The notes under the pieces were generated by a model, which was not told where the DNA came from, did not search any database, and saw nothing but the letters and a program-made list of their open reading frames with translations. From Chloroflexi bacterium GWB2_49_20 (GTDB lineage Bacteria; Chloroflexota; Anaerolineae; Anaerolineales; Villigracilaceae), in assembly GCA_001796335.1 (NCBI GenBank), contig MGMF01000017.1, positions 1 to 64,000 on the forward strand: a DNA stretch of 64,000 bases. Reading direction: 5' to 3'. Position numbers and translations under genes: made by a program. Below, piece by piece: positions 36,753 to 45,656 of this stretch. Positions within the stretch are counted from its first letter, which is position 1. The number at the start of each line of letters is the position of its first letter.

Positions 36753-38009
36753 ATGACAAAACCAACACTGAATCATGCAAGAAATACTTTAGTTTTGTTC
36801 GCAACCGGTTTATTTATTTTATTGCTGGGCGCAACCTCTATTCGCACCTATGCCAAAAGCATGAACGTGGATCCCACACCCACCCCGGAGATAACGCAAT
36901 CATCCGCTCCAGCTACTACATTGCAGACCAACCCGCATGAGGACGGCGAGTGTTTGGATTGTCATGGAAATCCGGCTTTGACAGGTTTAACCATGGATGG
37001 CGAAACCATTTCCCTGTATATCCAGCCTGCCGCGCATCAAGAATCCTTCCATAGCCGGGAAGGTGGCGGATGCAATAAGTTTTGTCATCAAGCCCAGGCT
37101 ACCTATCCCCACGAAACTTCAACTGCGGAATCTTGCGCTGTATGCCATTGGCAGGTTTCAGGACAGGCACCTGTGGATGGCAAGCTTGTTTTTAAACTAC
37201 CTTATGTGGATGCACGTGCCATTACGTTGGAAGTGAACACTTCCTGCAAGAAATGTCATGTGGAAATTTTTGAATCCACAACCGATAGCGCTCATACCCG
37301 CATCATGCTGGAGGGCAATCGTTATGCCCCGCTTTGTTCGGATTGCCACAGCGGACATGATATCAGCCTGGTCACCCGCCAGGGTGTTTCGGATGTATGT
37401 AAAAAATGCCACCTGGCAGAATACACCACCTACAAAGGCAGTGTACATGGGGCAGCCCTGGAGGCTGACTCCAACCCAGATGTACCCACCTGTGCCGGCT
37501 GCCATGGATCGCATTTGGTCAGCGGTCCTGGTACTACGGATTTCCGTACAGCCACTGTTAAGATATGCGGTGATTGCCATTCCGATAAGACCATTATGGA
37601 CAAATACGGCATCTCCACCGATGTTTTGAGCACTTACATGGATGATGCCCACGGATTGACCGATTTTTTTAGGAAAACCAACCTGGAAAACATTACTCGT
37701 GCTACCTGCTTTGATTGCCATGGAAAGCATAACATCCTGAGCCCGGATAACCCGAGTTCGAAGGTATATCCCGAAAACCTGCAATCCACCTGCCAGCAGT
37801 GCCACGATGATGCCAATATTCGCTTCCCGCAATCCTGGCTGAGCCACAAGAAGATTGATTCTGGCGCGAATCCGGGTTTGAGTTGGACCAACCAGATTTC
37901 GTTGTTTATCGTGGTCGCTGCCGCTGTGATTATCCTGGCTTTGATTATTCTGGATGCCCGCCGCCGGATTGCCCTCAAAGTTAAAGCTGGGCGGAACAAT
38001 GGAAAATAA
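36753..38009 (+). CDS. Membrane-anchored multiheme c-type cytochrome with ten heme motifs
   Basis: A 418-residue protein with an N-terminal signal anchor (residues 12-28) and a C-terminal helix (LFIVVAAAVIILALIIL, 384-400). Nine CxxCH sites start at residues 67, 128, 165, 195, 216, 247, 272, 319 and 347. A tenth, CNKFCH (107-112), has three residues between cysteines and may also bind heme. The bulk faces the outside of the cytoplasmic membrane. The ATG at 36753 follows AGAGAAGA. Eleven bases overlap with the cytochrome b gene, so the two proteins are probably partners in one membrane complex, passing electrons from the quinone pool to extracytoplasmic carriers. No enzymatic site is recognisable. 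The family resembles the cytochrome parts of Geobacter Cbc-type complexes, by analogy only. Confidence 0.93.
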   Translation: MTKPTLNHARNTLVLFATGLFILLLGATSIRTYAKSMNVDPTPTPEITQSSAPATTLQTNPHEDGECLDCHGNPALTGLTMDGETISLYIQPAAHQESFHSREGGGCNKFCHQAQATYPHETSTAESCAVCHWQVSGQAPVDGKLVFKLPYVDARAITLEVNTSCKKCHVEIFESTTDSAHTRIMLEGNRYAPLCSDCHSGHDISLVTRQGVSDVCKKCHLAEYTTYKGSVHGAALEADSNPDVPTCAGCHGSHLVSGPGTTDFRTATVKICGDCHSDKTIMDKYGISTDVLSTYMDDAHGLTDFFRKTNLENITRATCFDCHGKHNILSPDNPSSKVYPENLQSTCQQCHDDANIRFPQSWLSHKKIDSGANPGLSWTNQISLFIVVAAAVIILALIILDARRRIALKVKAGRNNGK

Positions 38010-38928
38010 TCCCGTCCAGGAATCTGCAGCCATGCCTGAAACTGTCGAACCTGTTAATGAGACAACATCCCGGATGCCAACCATCACGCGCTATGTGAAT
38101 GAGCGTGATGCCAATGCAGCCTTGCAAAATATGAAAACTTCAAAAGATGGCAGCGCTTATGTGGTGCGTTTCACCTTGCTGGTGCGCCTGCTTCACCTTT
38201 TGTTGTTGGTTGCGGTCACCGGATTGGCTTTCACCGGGTTGGCCCAGATCTTTTATGCAAATGCCCTCGGACGTATCATGCTGAGCCTGCTGGGTGGGTT
38301 GGAAAAAACCCAAAATATTCACCATGCCTTTGCCATCCTTCTGGCTGCTCTGGCGATTTTCCATATTCTGGACAGCCTGGAAAGCCTTTTTGTGCGACAG
38401 CAGAGACCTCCCATGCTTCTGCGTTGGATTGATTTTCAAAACTTCTTCCAGATGCAGGTGTTCAATTTGGGTCTGACCAGGAAACAACCTCGTTTTGACC
38501 GGTATTCCTACGAAGAAAAAGCAGTTTATTGGCTGGTGACCCTGGGAATTCTCGTGTTGGGACTGACCGGTATCGTGCAGTGGTTCCCCATCCAGGTGAC
38601 CGAGTTTCTGCCGGGAATTGTGATCCCTTACGCAGGCATCATCCACCGCTGGGAAGCCATCCTGGTCATTCTGGTGGTGTTTGTCTACCATCTATACCAG
38701 GTGCTATTTCGTAAACCGGATGGCAGTATTTTTTCTGGAAAGAAAACCCGGGCAGATATGCAGATGGAACACCCGCTCGAGCTTGAATATCTGGAGAAAG
38801 CCGCTGCAGCAGCAGGCAGCCCGGATTGGCCGGTCAGGATTGAACTTAACCTGTCAGACGATACGGGTGAAGAAATCAAAGAAACAGAATCAGCCTCTCG
38901 AGACACATCTGCTCCAGAAGGATCATAA
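37999..38928 (+). CDS. Cytochrome b-type membrane subunit (FdnI/cytochrome b561-like)
   Basis: A 309-residue protein with four main transmembrane helices at about residues 57-85, 106-128, 176-197 and 217-238. Histidines at 66 (RLLHLLLL), 108-109 (NIHHAF), 122 (IFHIL), 216 (IIHRWE) and 231 (VYHLY) are placed to hold two b-type hemes across the membrane, as in formate dehydrogenase gamma subunits. Soluble polar ends lie on both sides. It overlaps the upstream cytochrome gene and is 38 bases from the next one. Likely role: quinol oxidation or quinone reduction, exchanging electrons with the multiheme partner. The direction cannot be read from sequence. Confidence 0.9.
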   Translation: MENNPVQESAAMPETVEPVNETTSRMPTITRYVNERDANAALQNMKTSKDGSAYVVRFTLLVRLLHLLLLVAVTGLAFTGLAQIFYANALGRIMLSLLGGLEKTQNIHHAFAILLAALAIFHILDSLESLFVRQQRPPMLLRWIDFQNFFQMQVFNLGLTRKQPRFDRYSYEEKAVYWLVTLGILVLGLTGIVQWFPIQVTEFLPGIVIPYAGIIHRWEAILVILVVFVYHLYQVLFRKPDGSIFSGKKTRADMQMEHPLELEYLEKAAAAAGSPDWPVRIELNLSDDTGEEIKETESASRDTSAPEGS

Positions 38929-38966
38929 AATTAGCACTAAAATATTATTTCAACAAGGATTGCTGG

Positions 38967-40481
38967 ATGTCATTCTTTAGAAAATTACGCGCAAAACGCC
39001 ATTGGCCGAAAGTCACTATTGACCTTTCAAAACCAGTCCACCGTCTGAAACTCACGCTGGCCTTGGTAACTGTGCTGATCGTGGCGATTGGAGTATTGGT
39101 TGGCGGTATCAAGGGATATGACTACACCGAAAGCTCGGAGTTTTGTGGTACCACCTGTCACGTCATGGATCCACAGTATATTCGCTATGAACAATCCCCT
39201 CATGCCAATGTGGATTGCGCCCAGTGTCATATCGGACCGGGTGCCTCGTTCTTTGTGCGTTCCAAGATCGATGGATTGCGCCAGGTATATGCCACCATCT
39301 TTGACACCTACAGCCGTCCGATCAAGAGCCCGGTTCAGAACTTGCGCCCGGCACGCGAGACCTGTGAAACCTGTCATTCACCCACTAACTTCAAGGACAA
39401 TATCGTCAAGACCATCCAACACTATGATGATGATGCTGCCAATACTCCCATTCAGACCACGCTGATCTTGAAAATGGGGGGCTCGCAGGAAAGCACCGGC
39501 CTCATCCAGGGCATTCACTGGCATGTCTCCAGTGAGGTTTACTACATAGCCGCTGATGAACAGCGCCAGTCCATGTTATGGGTGGGTGTGCGCCAGGCAG
39601 ATGGAACCCTGAAAGAATTCTTCTCGCGTGACTTGATCGGTATGAACCAGACTGATTTTTTGGAGCAAGCCCAAGTGGATGGCAAGGTGCGCCTGATGGA
39701 TTGTATAGATTGCCACAACCGTACTGCACATAACATCCCTTACCCTGGGCAGGCTGTGGACCAGGCTATTGCAAATGGCCTCATCTCCCGCAATATCCCA
39801 AATATCCGTGCCCGTGCCGTGACGCTGCTGGGTGCTTCCTATGGCAGCCTGGATGAAGCTAATTCAGCATTCGATGCCCTGGCGGAAGAATATTCCACCA
39901 ATTTTTCCGGCAAAGTGGCTTCCAATCCGGCTTTAAGCCTGGTAAATGCCCAGTTGGTGGCCGAGGCCATTGAAACTCTCAAGCAGTTGTATGTCGAAGA
40001 TACTTTCCCCGAAATGAGAACTGACTGGGTCACCAATCCCAATAATGAGAAACACACTCCCTCCCTGGGTTGTTTCCGTTGTCATAATGACTCATTTGTT
40101 TCGATCAATTCCTCGGATAACCAAAGGGATACCATCAGTGCCGACTGCAACCTTTGCCATACCGTTCCGATCACCGGACGCGGTAGTGAATTATTGATTG
40201 AAGCCCCTGTCATCGTGGGTGCCGCTCCCGCATCGCATGATAATTATAGTTGGACCATCACCCACCGCTCCACCACCGAAGCCCAGAAACAGAATTGCAA
40301 CCAGTGTCACGGGCAGAACTTCTGCAACAATGGTGTCTGTCACAATCTCTCGCATCCACCCGACATGCTATTCACACACGCTGAGGAATACAAAAAGACC
40401 GGTGAACAGGTGTGTTATACCTGTCATCAGAACATCACCTGTGTTCGCTGCCATCCCAGCGGAGTGATTAAAAATCCTTAA
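38967..40481 (+). CDS. NapC/NirT-type multiheme cytochrome c with ten heme motifs
   Basis: A 504-residue protein with one N-terminal helix (about residues 29-50) and a large extracytoplasmic part. The NapC-like start is EFCGTTCHVMDPQYIRYEQ then VDCAQCHIGPGASFF, and the block NLRPARETCETCH matches the large NapC/NirT family. Eight CxxCH sites start at 84, 133, 246, 369, 394, 444, 483 and 492; CGTTCH (60-65, three spacer residues) and CNNGVCH (453-459, four) are variant sites. NapC-type proteins oxidise membrane quinol. It is far longer than the four-heme NapC, with an extra heme-binding C-terminal half. The stop shares one base with the next start, implying coupling. Confidence 0.93.
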   Translation: MSFFRKLRAKRHWPKVTIDLSKPVHRLKLTLALVTVLIVAIGVLVGGIKGYDYTESSEFCGTTCHVMDPQYIRYEQSPHANVDCAQCHIGPGASFFVRSKIDGLRQVYATIFDTYSRPIKSPVQNLRPARETCETCHSPTNFKDNIVKTIQHYDDDAANTPIQTTLILKMGGSQESTGLIQGIHWHVSSEVYYIAADEQRQSMLWVGVRQADGTLKEFFSRDLIGMNQTDFLEQAQVDGKVRLMDCIDCHNRTAHNIPYPGQAVDQAIANGLISRNIPNIRARAVTLLGASYGSLDEANSAFDALAEEYSTNFSGKVASNPALSLVNAQLVAEAIETLKQLYVEDTFPEMRTDWVTNPNNEKHTPSLGCFRCHNDSFVSINSSDNQRDTISADCNLCHTVPITGRGSELLIEAPVIVGAAPASHDNYSWTITHRSTTEAQKQNCNQCHGQNFCNNGVCHNLSHPPDMLFTHAEEYKKTGEQVCYTCHQNITCVRCHPSGVIKNP

Positions 40482-41455
40482 TGGTTGAGATGTACGCAAA
40501 GGTCAGGTCTTTTATAAATACGATTGTCGAGCGATTTTTTTCTACCGACAAACAGGTTGAACGTACCATCCTGTTTGCGGGACTTGCCTTGGTGTTGGTG
40601 GCAGGTAGCTTTGCAAGTTATTACAATTTTGACCGATATTACTCTAATCAGCAACCTGTCTCTCAAAGAACTGTGGATGCAGCCGAACAAGCAGTCAAGG
40701 ATGATCCAACTGACCTGGATACCCGCCTGGATTTGGCAGAAACCTATTTGCATTTCGAACGATATGACGACGCCCTGGCACAGGCCAGCCAGGTGTTTAT
40801 TGCCGATCCAACCAGGCAACGCGCCTGGCTGGTGATTGGTTTAGCCAATGCCCTTAACGGCAAACCCGCTGGCGCCATCAATTATTTGACGAATTATGTC
40901 AATGCCTTCGAGAATGAAGAGATGCCAGGGCTGGATAAAGAACTTCAGGAGGCTGCTTATTTCCTTGGCACCAGCTACCTGCAACTCGGTCAGCCCGGGA
41001 AGGCAATCTTCCCCCTGGAACAGGCGGTGGGGTGGAACCAGATGGATGCAGATGCCATTTACCAACTGGGTCTGGCTTACGCTGGTGTTGGTCGGTATGA
41101 AGATGCGGTTAACATGTTCGCCTCCGCAGTTAATTTTGTACCTAATTTTACCGAAGCCTACCAATCCATGGCAGAGGTTTACGATGCTGGTAACAAGCCC
41201 GAACTGGGCGATTATGCGCGTGGCATGCTGGCTTACTCGCAGAAGGATTATTCATCTGCCCGGGAACTGCTCTTAAATGCAAAAGAGGTTTATCCAAACT
41301 TCGCACCCATCTTTGTTGGTCTTGGTTTAACGTATGAAGCCGGGAACGACCTGAAGAATGCCAAAGCCTCGTTTGATACAGCGATTTCGATCGACCCGAA
41401 CAACTACACGGCTGTGCGTGGTGTTGAACGCCTGGCAGCACTCTTGAACCAATAG
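40481..41455 (+). CDS. Membrane-anchored TPR-repeat protein
   Basis: A 324-residue protein with one N-terminal helix (TILFAGLALVLVAGSFASYY) and about six tetratricopeptide repeats, such as LDTRLDLAETYLHFERYDDA, AAYFLGTSYLQLGQPGKAI, AIYQLGLAYAGVGRYEDAV and PIFVGLGLTYEAGNDLKNA. TPRs mediate protein-protein contacts. It has no heme motif and sits between a cytochrome and a beta-propeller gene, with a one-base overlap with the former. It may scaffold the cytochrome complex or help its maturation outside the membrane; both are inference. Confidence 0.9.
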   Translation: MVEMYAKVRSFINTIVERFFSTDKQVERTILFAGLALVLVAGSFASYYNFDRYYSNQQPVSQRTVDAAEQAVKDDPTDLDTRLDLAETYLHFERYDDALAQASQVFIADPTRQRAWLVIGLANALNGKPAGAINYLTNYVNAFENEEMPGLDKELQEAAYFLGTSYLQLGQPGKAIFPLEQAVGWNQMDADAIYQLGLAYAGVGRYEDAVNMFASAVNFVPNFTEAYQSMAEVYDAGNKPELGDYARGMLAYSQKDYSSARELLLNAKEVYPNFAPIFVGLGLTYEAGNDLKNAKASFDTAISIDPNNYTAVRGVERLAALLNQ

Positions 41456-41465
41456 GTTAAGCATA

Positions 41466-42662
41466 ATGTCCAATCCAGAAATTGATTCCCAATCTTCAAC
41501 TCCATCCGGTATAAAAGGAGAACGCAAACGTCGCACCTTGCTGGTTGTGTTGTTAATGTTGTTCCTTCTATTATGCGCGGTTGGCTGTTTGTTCCTGCGT
41601 TATTTGCTCAAACCCGAACCGATCAGTGAAATCGTACCGCTCCTTCAGGTATCCAAACAGGCTCCGCCCACTTATGTGAAAATGATTGAAGGTGTTGACG
41701 GGCCGGTCGGAGTGACGGTTTCTCCAGATGGGCAGAGAATTTATGTCAGCGAAAGTAAGGGAGAACGCTTGATCAAGATTTTTGATAGGGAAGGAAAATT
41801 GATCCAGAGTTTTTCCCCTCCTGGTACCGAAAATACCAACCGGATCCCAGTCTACCTGGCAGCCTCACTGGATGGACGGGTATTCGTCAGCGATCGTTAC
41901 AACGCTGTCATTGATATATTCGATGCCGACGGTAAATTTATCGATGCCATCATTGCCCGGGATATGACTCTGAGCAAATATGTAAAGACTCAAGCAGGTG
42001 GAATCCTGCCTCCCGCTACAATGTTCTATTACGACAACCTTAATGGCGTGGTGGTCTTCCAAAAACCGGGTGGAGAAGTTGAGACTCTGGTTGGACCGGA
42101 TAGAGCCGACTGGAATCCTCTGGGAGTGCGTTTTGATGCGGAAGGAAATTTGCTGGTTACAAATCTGGTCGCTGGCCAACATCAAGTCCTGATCTTTCCG
42201 GCGGAAACGCTGGCGGATGATTTGGTGAATTTTGCACCAGCCGTTAAAGAATTCGGAGCGGAGGGTAACCAGGACGGGCAATTTTCTTTTCCAAACAGTG
42301 TGGTGAAAGATAGCCAGGGCAATTTTTATGTATCCGATGGCAACAACGGACGTATTTCATCCTGGTCTTTGGACATGAGCTATAAGAGTTTCTTTGGTTT
42401 TGGCTCATCAGAGCAATCGCTGAACTTACCGCGTGGCCTCTGGATGGATGCCAAGGACCGCCTTTATATTGCCGATGCGGTTGGTCAGACCATCCGTGTA
42501 TACAATGTATCCGGCGCTGACCCGCAATTCCTTTTCAATATTGGCGGGTTTGGCATCACAGAAGGAAATTTCAATTTCCCAACGGACCTGGCCATGGATT
42601 CAACCGGAAGGTTGTATGTGGCGGATAGCGAAAACAACCGCATTGACATATGGTCTTACTAG
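41466..42662 (+). CDS. Membrane-anchored NHL-repeat beta-propeller protein
   Basis: A 398-residue protein with a basic N-terminus, one helix (LLVVLLMLFLLLCAVGCLFL) and an NHL/six-bladed propeller domain from about residue 70. Repeats include PVGVTVSPDGQRIYVSESKG, GRVFVSDRYNAVIDIFDADG, FPNSVVKDSQGNFYVSDGNN, LPRGLWMDAKDRLYIADAVG and FPTDLAMDSTGRLYVADSEN. Propellers of this type bind proteins or ligands, and NHL genes beside multiheme cytochromes are known in other metal-respiring bacteria. It has no heme motif. It follows the TPR gene by 10 bases, so it is in the same operon. Confidence 0.92.
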   Translation: MSNPEIDSQSSTPSGIKGERKRRTLLVVLLMLFLLLCAVGCLFLRYLLKPEPISEIVPLLQVSKQAPPTYVKMIEGVDGPVGVTVSPDGQRIYVSESKGERLIKIFDREGKLIQSFSPPGTENTNRIPVYLAASLDGRVFVSDRYNAVIDIFDADGKFIDAIIARDMTLSKYVKTQAGGILPPATMFYYDNLNGVVVFQKPGGEVETLVGPDRADWNPLGVRFDAEGNLLVTNLVAGQHQVLIFPAETLADDLVNFAPAVKEFGAEGNQDGQFSFPNSVVKDSQGNFYVSDGNNGRISSWSLDMSYKSFFGFGSSEQSLNLPRGLWMDAKDRLYIADAVGQTIRVYNVSGADPQFLFNIGGFGITEGNFNFPTDLAMDSTGRLYVADSENNRIDIWSY

Positions 42663-42809
42663 CAGGGTCTTACGCATGGCTGATTTTAAACCCGGGGACT
42701 GCTGGTTTGGATGGATATCCTGAACCATGGCTAGCAGGTTGGGTTGGTAGAAAAGCAACAAAAAAAGGACACTGAACACGAACTTGCCTTACTACTTATA
42801 TTAAAGAGA

Positions 42810-44255
42810 ATGATGAATATGAAAAAATATCTAATTGCTCTGGTCCTTGGCTTGGTGTCGATCTTGGTCCTGGTTCCTACAATTGTTCAAGCTGATAATG
42901 GCCCGCATGGTGGTTTTTCCGCCAATACGGACACCTGCGCTGTTTGTCACCGCCTTCACTCTTCTAAAGGTGGCACCAATGACCTGATTTTTTCCGATCC
43001 CCAGGCTTTGTGCCTGGCTTGCCATAGTGGCAGCGGTGCCAATACGAACGTTGTGGATGGTGTATTCATGGGAACGGGATCGGAGCTGGATGTGGAAGGT
43101 GCTGCACTCGGTAGCCTGTTGGGGGGGGGGTTCACGAATGCCTTGATGGCTACAACGTGGAGCGGCAAGGCAGCATTTGATCCAGGATTCAATGCCACCT
43201 CCAGTGTAACCACATCCATGCATGATATGGGGGCGGATCAAAAGGTTTGGGGCGCGGGTACAAACAATGCTGCCGATGCAACCATCACGCTCGAATGTAT
43301 TTCCTGTCATGACCCGCATGGGAACGCAGGCTGGGATGTGACCACAACTCCGGGAACTGCTACGCGTGTGGCTTCCTATCGTTTGCTGCGCTGGCAGCCC
43401 TCAGGTTCTGACGGCTTCACTCCACCTGTCACAAGGGTGAATTGGACTGGCGGCGCATACCACGGCAACCTTCAAACGGATGGCAAAACCGGCTGGTTGG
43501 TGCCGGATAATTATTCTGGTAAAGAATGGTACACCATAGGTACCAAGGGTCGCTCTGCATTGGGCGACTACACTATTGGTAATATCACCGCCAACTACCA
43601 GCCTGCAGGCTTTAATTACGTCCCGGCTGCCGCAAATATGGCATATTTCTGTGCCCAATGCCATGACCGCTATTTCAATAACAACAAATTATTCAGGGAG
43701 GATGATGAAAGCCTGTACTGTGGCACACCGGGTGATCCCAGGAGAGTCGGCTCAGCAGTAATTCCAACTGTACCGGTAAATGCTAGGGGTCTGAACTCCC
43801 AAGATCCAATTAATTGTCTCCCTGTTTACAATAGCTCTGGTGAATTAACAGGTTGGGCGGATGACAGGCCGAGTGGTGACCCCACTTACATGTACCGCCA
43901 CGATTCGGGCGATGTAATCCGTAATTCCAACGATGGTACTTTCGAAGGCTCGCACACTGTCACCACTTCAGTCGGTCGTAGCTGCGTGGCATGCCATGTT
44001 GCCCATGGCACCTCCGCAAATCCTGATGCTGATACAACGGATGCCATTATTACGGGTTCTAAACCTGGTAGTGGTTCCCTGGCAGGTGGTTCCGTGCTGT
44101 TGCGCATGGATGGTCGCACAATTTGCCTGAGCTGCCACCTCGGGGATGTTGACTTTACAGTGGGTCCATTGGCGGAAAAATCTCATAATGACTTTTCCGT
44201 GCTAACCGGTAGCCAATGTGCCAAATGCCATAGTATTCACTCTGCCCGGCAGTGA
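42810..44255 (+). CDS. Secreted seven-heme c-type cytochrome
   Basis: A 481-residue protein with a signal peptide (YLIALVLGLVSILVLV, cleavage after VQA near residue 28) and no C-terminal helix. Seven CxxCH sites start at residues 43, 68, 163, 281, 392, 439 and 470; several are of the doubled-CxxCH type (CAVCHRLHSS, CAKCHSIHSA). Long heme-poor stretches between sites may form binding domains. Three ATGs lie close together (42810, 42813, 42819) and any could be used; the upstream in-frame TTG at 42744 is unlikely. A run of ten G (43121-43130) lies inside the gene at residues 104-107. It ends the operon. Confidence 0.92.
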   Translation: MMNMKKYLIALVLGLVSILVLVPTIVQADNGPHGGFSANTDTCAVCHRLHSSKGGTNDLIFSDPQALCLACHSGSGANTNVVDGVFMGTGSELDVEGAALGSLLGGGFTNALMATTWSGKAAFDPGFNATSSVTTSMHDMGADQKVWGAGTNNAADATITLECISCHDPHGNAGWDVTTTPGTATRVASYRLLRWQPSGSDGFTPPVTRVNWTGGAYHGNLQTDGKTGWLVPDNYSGKEWYTIGTKGRSALGDYTIGNITANYQPAGFNYVPAAANMAYFCAQCHDRYFNNNKLFREDDESLYCGTPGDPRRVGSAVIPTVPVNARGLNSQDPINCLPVYNSSGELTGWADDRPSGDPTYMYRHDSGDVIRNSNDGTFEGSHTVTTSVGRSCVACHVAHGTSANPDADTTDAIITGSKPGSGSLAGGSVLLRMDGRTICLSCHLGDVDFTVGPLAEKSHNDFSVLTGSQCAKCHSIHSARQ

Positions 44256-44320
44256 CGATATAACAGATGGATTAATAAGTTCGTAATTCGTAGGACGGCT
44301 TTCTTGGCCGCCAATTGGTT

Positions 44321-44348
44321 AGGGCAGGTTTCTTACTTGCCCTATTTA
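44321..44348 (+). terminator. Probable terminator of the cytochrome operon
   Basis: AGGGCAGGT (44321-44329) pairs with ACTTGCCCT (44335-44343) over nine positions with one G-U pair and a five-base loop, followed by ATTTAT. A similar hairpin (GGACGGC-tttctt-GGCCGCC, starting at 44293) lies just upstream. The U-tract is weak, so the call is moderate. Nothing else is seen in the 44256-44582 gap apart from the minus-strand terminator. Confidence 0.5.
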
Positions 44349-44518
44349 TGACTCGAGTAATGACCTGGCATTCTTTAATACAGCCCCCTTCTGAAAATTG
44401 AAGACTCGCTGACAATTTTATCGGTCTAAACATAAATTTTACCCTTGGATCGTATCCACCTTATGATTATTCTCCTCACCAAAGTCTTGAAAAGTTGGGC
44501 TTTATTGAACACAAATGG

Positions 44519-44553
44519 ATAATAAAACGGGACTGAGCAGGCTCAGTCCCGTT
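44519..44553 (-). terminator. Rho-independent terminator of the collagen-stalk cytochrome gene
   Basis: AACGGGACTGAG (44526-44537) and CTCAGTCCCGTT (44542-44553) form a perfect 12-bp stem with a four-base loop. On the minus strand it is followed by TTTTATTATCC. It lies 30 bases beyond the stop at 44583. Confidence 0.88.
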
Positions 44554-44582
44554 AAGGTTACTTTATTTAGCTGATTCCTGGT

Positions 44583-45656
44583 TTAGGGGAGAGCCGCCAG
44601 GGTTGCATCCAACAAGGCTTTGGTGTAGGCTGAATTATGGACGCCATTACTCAAATCATAGACAACCATTTTGTAGTTCCACATCGCGTTTCCGATCTCT
44701 TCGGTAACTACCAAAGGAGCATCTGCAGAGGGATTACTCCACTTACCTGTCGCTGCGTCATAAATACCCCATAGACCAGTGTCCGGATTCAAAAGTTTCA
44801 TATCGACGAGTTTGGTATGGAGCACTTCAAGCTTCTCCTCAACTTCGGTCTGCACACCGTTGATGTCGAAGTCTGTTGCATCGGCATGGCAGGCTACACA
44901 GGCGGACACCTGAGGCGTGAAGGTATGATTGGTGCCTTCGCCCAGATGACAGGTCACACAGGTGTTCTCTACCATTGAGTAGTGTGCGCTGGGTTTGCCT
45001 TCTAGGCCGGCACCGCCGGTACCCAGCAAGATTGAAGACATTGGACCATAATGTGGGCCATAGCGTGAGCTGGTGATCTTAACATTCCCGTCTGTTGCTG
45101 GAGTGAATACACTCCGTACCTGATGGCAATTGGCGCATAGGTTACCCATGCCGCCGTCAAAGGTTGCCTTGGTTGTGTCAGCAGCGGCGAAGAATGCAAC
45201 CGGGGCAACGGTCTCAAGCGCCCAGTCTGCTGAGGTGTAGGTGGTGTGAATCTGGTGGCATGCACGGCAATCCTGGGGGGTTGCGTTCGTATGCACAACT
45301 TCAACTTTATTCGGGGCCAGACCGGCAGCAACACTTTCACTGAAGGCACTGCCATCATGGCAGAATGAGCACTGTGCTCTTCCTGCTTCTTCTACATAGA
45401 CCAGGCTGCTGCCATGCAAAGATGCAGCCCACATGGCAGTCTTGCTGGTGAGTTCCGTACCATCATTGTGGCATTCGGTGCAGGTCAGGTCGGTGGCTGC
45501 CGGTGAAACGCCGGCAGCTCCGGCAGGGCCGGTAGCACCGGAAGGACCAGCAGGGCCGGCAGGTCCTTCAGCGCCAGCGGGGCCGGCGCAGGCTGTCAAA
45601 ATGAATGCAGCGGCGATCAGCACGCCAACGAGCAAAAGTACTTTTTTATTAGACAT
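44583..45656 (-). CDS. Six-heme cytochrome c lipoprotein with collagen-like stalk
   Basis: A 357-residue protein. The signal peptide ends in a lipobox, LTAC (20-23), so Cys23 should be lipidated. It is followed at 25-49 by about eight Gly-X-Y triplets (GPAGAEGPAGPAGPSG and more), a collagen-like stalk. Six CxxCH motifs then begin at residues 59, 96, 130, 174, 223 and 243, and the last 110 residues are heme-free (LWGIYDAATGKWSNPS, MWNYKMVVYDLSNGVHNSAY). It would be tethered to the outer face of the membrane with its heme domain held away from it. AAGGAGA precedes the ATG, and its own promoter lies at 45769-45797. It converges on the cytochrome operon, with a terminator of its own. A surface electron carrier is inferred. 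Confidence 0.92.
   Translation of the reverse strand: MSNKKVLLLVGVLIAAAFILTACAGPAGAEGPAGPAGPSGATGPAGAAGVSPAATDLTCTECHNDGTELTSKTAMWAASLHGSSLVYVEEAGRAQCSFCHDGSAFSESVAAGLAPNKVEVVHTNATPQDCRACHQIHTTYTSADWALETVAPVAFFAAADTTKATFDGGMGNLCANCHQVRSVFTPATDGNVKITSSRYGPHYGPMSSILLGTGGAGLEGKPSAHYSMVENTCVTCHLGEGTNHTFTPQVSACVACHADATDFDINGVQTEVEEKLEVLHTKLVDMKLLNPDTGLWGIYDAATGKWSNPSADAPLVVTEEIGNAMWNYKMVVYDLSNGVHNSAYTKALLDATLAALP

Follow-up and report, generated by a model that had tools for sequence, protein, structure and literature searches.

Bacterial cytochrome nanowires are known mainly from Geobacter, in which filaments must be charged and secreted across two membranes and redundant cytochromes obscure the path taken by the electrons. 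Sediments, aquifers, and digesters commonly harbour Anaerolineae. ImcH has already been reported in Chloroflexota (PMC6295460), and multiheme-rich Anaerolineales without porin-cytochrome complexes, Anaerolineae multiheme cytochromes without a clear electron route, and an OmcS homolog in an actinobacterium have been noted (PMC7399161). The present analysis concerns a seven-gene cytochrome locus at positions 36753-45656 of the window, which is the 64,000-nucleotide stretch of contig MGMF01000017.1 (assembly GCA_001796335.1) from Chloroflexi bacterium GWB2_49_20, a member of the Anaerolineales. The locus probably encodes a module that carries electrons from quinol to the exterior of a monoderm cell and ends in an OmcS-type, possibly filament-forming cytochrome, designated cytS.

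The locus consists of six tightly packed, co-directional genes (36753-44255) in the order cytA-cytb-ImcH-like-TPR-NHL-cytS, and a seventh, convergent gene (44583-45656). Its flanks are housekeeping genes, pgl-gnd-zwf upstream and cinA-uvrC downstream. The features are as follows.

36753..38009, + strand: cytA, exported, membrane-anchored decaheme cytochrome c with a C-terminal helix (heme motifs)
37954..38928, + strand: cytb, HydC/FdnI-type b-type membrane cytochrome (PF01292, E 1.8e-15)
38967..40481, + strand: ImcH-family quinol oxidase candidate (NapC/NrfH-type N-terminal domain, motif register, criteria of PMC6295460)
40481..41455, + strand: TPR protein with one N-terminal membrane anchor (TPR profile match, conserved beside ImcH)
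41466..42662, + strand: NHL beta-propeller with one N-terminal membrane anchor (PF01436, E 6.9e-27; linkage to cytS)
42819..44255, + strand: cytS, secreted OmcS-type cytochrome with six OmcS-pattern hemes and a seventh, C-terminal heme
44526..44553, no strand: terminator-like hairpin of 12 pairs, lying between the lipoprotein gene and the operon convergent with it
44583..45656, - strand: hexaheme lipoprotein with the lipobox LTAC and a collagen-like Gly-Pro-Ala stalk

The four cytochromes hold 33 heme motifs, CX3CH and CX4CH sites included: ten in cytA (nine CX2CH and one CX3CH), ten in the ImcH-like protein (eight CX2CH, one CX3CH at Cys60, and one CX4CH at Cys453), seven in cytS, and six in the lipoprotein. 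Shuffled cytochrome sequences contained a mean of only 0.01-0.04 motifs per protein. At the DNA level, the window contained 36 occurrences of the CX2CH-coding pattern where 6.1 were expected, a count reached by none of 100 shuffles, and the excess lay almost entirely inside the four cytochrome genes. The starts in the open reading frame list were too long for cytA and cytS, for which ATG 36753 and ATG 42819 are the likely starts; the latter opens an MKKYLIAL signal peptide, and TTG 42744 is an upstream over-extension. The original prediction, which had described seven genes here with four cytochromes and up to 33 heme motifs, a b-type protein, and anchored TPR and NHL proteins, was confirmed in these respects. 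It had also stated that no nitrite, sulfur, arsenate, or molybdopterin reductase was present, and inspection of the genes of the locus and of both flanks found none within or beside the operon.

OmcS pattern of cytS and its companions

Relatives of cytS are mostly 280-340 residues long and carry six CX2CH motifs (M1 to M6). Six further His residues were invariant in all 45 aligned sequences of the family (window included), lying in order before M1, three residues after M1 (+3), between M2 and M3, +3 after M3 (CHDPHG), between M4 and M5, and +3 after M5. The same six places were found in OmcS and 16 OmcS-family proteins of Geobacteraceae, the OmcS reference agreeing with PDB 6ef8 at each of its 407 residues. 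Five of the six were kept in 17 of these 17 proteins and the equivalent of OmcS His16, after M1, in 12; in the cytS family the His16 equivalent was kept in 45/45. The Geobacteraceae proteins that lack it (L120:2617-3924, L121:18244-19551, L122:16800-18086, L124:711-2021, and L110:1501-2862) may be non-filament paralogs marked by its loss. Among the proteins with five to eight hemes that were compared, the +3 His vector 101010 was limited to cytS and OmcS homologs, the sole other protein with this vector being an OmcS homolog outside the size filter; the lipoprotein family has a different His pattern.

To control for similarity due to the heme motifs alone, 1000 shuffles of OmcS were made in which the six motifs stayed in place. 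Scored with the profile of the cytS family, OmcS reached 54.8 bits, against a mean of 1.3 and a maximum of 25.5 for the shuffles, and in a search of PDB the profile matched OmcS at E 5.5e-6 over profile positions 39-297 of 314. A single-sequence phmmer search of PDB with cytS returned nothing relevant, OmcS being reached only by the family profile. By its sequence pattern, cytS is an OmcS-type cytochrome plus one heme: six of its heme motifs are arranged with six extra His as in OmcS, and it differs in the seventh heme and in being only about 20-27% identical to the Geobacteraceae OmcS-family proteins. The secreted seven-heme carrier of the original prediction was thereby specified as OmcS-type, and no other component of the locus is as informative. 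In other Chloroflexota, OmcS-pattern cytochromes also occur in frames of 760-920 residues (L177, L179, L180, L191, and L192), which suggests fusions to large non-heme parts.

The search of the class that started from cytS found the gene in 24 of 298 genomes, and NHL lay directly upstream of it in 20 of the 23 other than the source genome; in the remaining three, the upstream view was mostly restricted by a contig end or a short flank. Loci found through ImcH in metagenome-assembled genomes of Chloroflexota had the order imcH-TPR-NHL-cytS, usually with cytA-cytb upstream (absent from the stretch examined in six loci) and often with two or three copies of cytS, and TPR-NHL-cytS recurred in other Chloroflexota classes (L173, L176, and L181). 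The TPR gene was conserved next to ImcH; its product has repeats predicted to lie outside and a conserved Y-Y-x-x-D-R-Y after the anchor. By this linkage, the TPR and NHL proteins are conserved genetic companions of cytS.

In many relatives (L033:13195-15870, L036:14715-17507, L038:12886-15558, L039:13898-16936, L042:14224-17466, and L034:13855-17463), the OmcS-type genes are followed by very long proteins (890-1200 residues) with 3-16 heme motifs; these are possible surface tips or anchors, and none is present in the window. Upstream of the module, several relatives encode histidine kinases and response regulators (L034:2430-4857, L033:5107-7341, L039:4530-6987, and L029:3652-4299), and two of these kinases have two CXXCH-like motifs.

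Papers that cite the osc study link the osc (OmcS companion) block to OmcS maturation and secretion (PMC12977616; PMC13194489). The omcS clusters compared here were those of Geobacteraceae relatives and not of G. sulfurreducens itself. In them, NHL propellers are located beside omcS and after a 15/16-heme gene, accompanied by a second propeller type and a peptidyl-prolyl isomerase, and a Sel1/TPR-like protein was found in two loci (Pfam test in one). The window operon resembles these clusters in having NHL and TPR proteins near an OmcS-type gene. It differs in lacking the large (about 650-775 residues) non-heme companion, the isomerase, and the 26- and 16-heme cytochromes, and in that its OmcS-type gene shares an operon with its quinol oxidase. 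The full companion set being absent (it is present in L120-L124), the operon was not classed as an osc cluster.

Predicted quinol-linked modules and the stalked lipoprotein

As characterized by Zhong and Shi, ImcH homologs have N-terminal helices (three; one in Anaerolinea thermophila), an adjoining CX3CH, and five to nine CX2CH (PMC6295460). The window protein has a NapC/NrfH-type domain at its N-terminus, a single helix at 23-52 by hydropathy, as in the one-helix form known from A. thermophila, CGTTCH (CX3CH) at 60, and eight CX2CH. Other Chloroflexota members likewise had one helix, whereas those of Geobacter and Acidobacteria had mostly three. Homologs from Geobacteraceae, Geothrix, Ignavibacteria, and other groups match the window protein in the register of its first six motifs; those of Geobacter, Geothrix, and other groups also begin with CX3CH and are about 35-42% identical. 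Compared with ImcH of Geobacter sulfurreducens, the N-terminal membrane anchor, the leading CX3CH, and the register of CX2CH are shared, and the window protein differs in having one helix rather than three and four extra C-terminal heme sites. By the published criteria it belongs to the ImcH family, and quinol oxidation is its predicted function. The resemblance to Geobacter ImcH that had been proposed by general analogy was therefore retained, with family membership replacing the analogy. Two ImcH clades were distinguished in Chloroflexota, a close one (about 52-64% identity) with the gene order of the window and a distant one (about 35-42%) that in some genomes adjoins 22- to 34-heme cytochromes. 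The source genome holds one ImcH-like gene (E <= 1e-20) and one cytS.

The second module is the cytA-cytb pair. All ten heme motifs of cytA were kept in 11 aligned sequences (window included). In addition to its PF01292 match, cytb gave a TIGR01583 match below the cut-off of that model and has six conserved His (81, 123, 137, 231, 246, and 273), and its reading frame, from 37954, overlaps cytA, which is likely the partner of this b-type subunit. The pair was likened to CbcL and CbcBA by domain arrangement only, with no reference sequence compared: in each, a multiheme c subunit is paired with a HydC/FdnI-type b membrane subunit, the window differing in having two separate genes and a ten-motif c subunit. 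Two candidate quinol-linked entry modules lie side by side, as had been predicted.

The lipoprotein gene lies on the opposite strand, convergent with the operon and separated from it by the hairpin at 44526-44553, and therefore belongs to a separate transcript; a promoter-like site at 45797-45769 (11/12 match, consensus matches only) precedes it. It was not seen in the relatives syntenic to the window operon. In the family sample it was found in 27 other genomes, mostly at 46-56% identity, and in 14 of the 15 cases with ImcH on the same contig it lay within 10 kb of the ImcH gene, often adjacent. This linkage overturned the idea that it was an unrelated neighbour, which its orientation and its absence from syntenic relatives had suggested. 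The ImcH genes that adjoin it in relatives belong to the distant clade, and the lipoprotein is likely an ImcH partner that was brought beside a close-clade operon here. The earlier proposal that this collagen-stalk lipoprotein is a partner in the locus was upheld.

The stalked lipoprotein is a frequent neighbour of the ImcH clade represented by the large-cytochrome loci of other Chloroflexota (L048, L051, and L066). These share the cytA-cytb-ImcH triad with the window and differ in that 22-heme and 26- to 34-heme cytochromes replace the TPR, NHL, and OmcS-type proteins. The 26- to 34-heme cytochromes precede the triad in L048 and L051, and the 22-heme cytochrome precedes it in all three.

Electron export weighed against other readings

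The source genome (3.37 Mb) is 99.4% complete. Searches with positive controls found no match in it to Omp85, the heme-copper oxidase subunit COX1, or NrfA. Because Omp85 is missing from a near-complete genome, the host appears to be monoderm, lacking an outer membrane, as the original prediction had assumed. A porin-cytochrome conduit of the Mtr/Pcc type was rejected on the same ground and for want of any beta-barrel gene in the locus. A second pair, of nine-heme cytochrome and cytochrome b, is encoded elsewhere in the genome (G000:C1:144850-147180; L165:11351-13680); it adjoins ccm genes, CcmF among them, and a sensor kinase/regulator pair, and its b subunit bears an extra one-heme domain. 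Contig C1 also carries a molybdopterin-FeS-NrfD-cytochrome cluster (L166), and a bd oxidase is encoded in the genome.

In the proposed mechanism, quinol would be oxidised on the outward-facing side of the cytoplasmic membrane, through two unlike entry modules, the ImcH-family decaheme cytochrome and the separate decaheme-c/cytochrome-b pair acting like CbcL/CbcBA. Electrons would pass to cytS and to the collagen-stalked hexaheme lipoprotein reaching into the wall, and from these to an outside acceptor such as a mineral, a humic substance, an electrode, or a partner cell. The role proposed for the NHL propeller and the TPR protein, both anchored, is to hold, fold, or dock cytS at the membrane surface. 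Finally, cytS may polymerise: as in OmcS, whose His16 serves in this way, the His at +3 after motif 1 would coordinate heme 5 of the following subunit. An inter-subunit His ligand of OmcS is described in a review that leaves the residue unnamed (PMC12954529). The invariant His16 equivalent in cytS is compatible with polymerisation and is no proof of it. The export reading of the original prediction was supported, and is held here with good confidence; electron exit and path, direction of flow, companion roles, polymerisation, and acceptor were inferred. Polymerisation of cytS is given slightly less than an even chance.

Several observations weigh against this reading. Identity between cytS and OmcS is low, and the seventh heme and large insertions of the window protein could block polymerisation. 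Predicted structures were weak: cytS of the window had a mean predicted local distance difference test score (pLDDT) of 37 (AlphaFold), and a hexaheme relative had pLDDT 61 and a predicted template modelling score of 0.69, with no Foldseek or VIA match, so that no structural claim is made for an OmcS-like fold. NHL and TPR repeats are common, and proteins that resemble those of Geobacteraceae in having them are not necessarily orthologs. Nitrite reductases outscored OmcS in the PDB profile search, locally around CHDPHG, and the bd oxidase offers the cell another electron sink. For Geobacter itself, OmcS as an electron conduit and the physiological need for its filaments are disputed (PMC11077965).

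The strongest competitor retains the same export route and makes cytS a monomeric or wall-bound carrier, with filaments confined to OmcS proper. The low identity, the extra heme, and the insertions favour it, as do the OmcS homologs of Geobacter, most of which have no demonstrated filament, and the 760-920-residue frames of several OmcS-pattern proteins in other Chloroflexota; the conservation of the His16 equivalent throughout cytS, against its loss in 5 of the 17 Geobacteraceae members, and of the NHL and TPR companions speaks for polymerisation, and the monomeric carrier is regarded as a serious possibility of rather less than even weight. That cytS is instead an enzyme of the octaheme or pentaheme nitrite reductase kind was suggested by the top PDB profile match by E-value, an octaheme nitrite reductase (E 3.6e-10). 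This match spans only the middle of the profile (positions 137-272 of 314), around CHDPHG. All motifs are CX2CH, with no CX2CK, and the hexaheme family has one conserved extra His for each heme, so that all hemes can be bis-His, none is unpaired or open to substrate, and a catalytic site is not evident. The catalytic reading was rejected as highly improbable.

Two further alternatives concern the destination of the electrons. A generic quinol-to-cytochrome relay feeding a dedicated soluble-acceptor reductase encoded elsewhere could draw on the molybdopterin-FeS-NrfD-cytochrome cluster, the second cytochrome pair near ccm, and the bd oxidase; it is considered unlikely, since neither the locus nor its immediate flanks encode a reductase, NrfA and COX1 were not found in the genome, and the secreted OmcS-type cytochrome and stalked lipoprotein point outward. 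Still less probable is an inward module that would reduce quinone with electrons taken up from Fe(II), electrodes, or partner cells, for which CbcL-like relatives (MtoC/MtrH) of iron oxidisers provide a precedent (PMC6295460), since ImcH homologs have so far been implicated solely in quinol oxidation. Outward electron transfer from quinol, ending in cytS, is thus preferred.

Novelty and meaning of the gene set

No description of an OmcS-type gene in Chloroflexota, or of this gene set, was found in the open-access literature searched, in agreement with the statement in the original prediction that the whole set was not a familiar one. The osc study of Shen from 2025, which may mention some of these genomes, is said to claim a wide distribution of the osc machinery. 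The parts come from known families, and their combination is an apparently undescribed set. It is tentatively proposed, as a somewhat doubtful extension of the export reading, that ImcH, the anchored TPR and NHL proteins, and an OmcS-type subunit would suffice to charge, assemble, and extrude a filament from the cytoplasmic membrane without porin or outer-membrane machinery, forming a minimal nanowire system.

If export by this locus holds true, it would represent a minimal route for respiring onto minerals or partners outside the cell. A single transcript encoding a quinol oxidase, an OmcS-type subunit, and two putative assembly factors, in a cell that lacks an outer membrane, would shrink the nanowire problem to a few genes. 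For the Anaerolineae, the locus would provide a specific, testable electron route together with a marker by which it can be recognised, namely an NHL gene adjoining an OmcS-pattern hexaheme gene.

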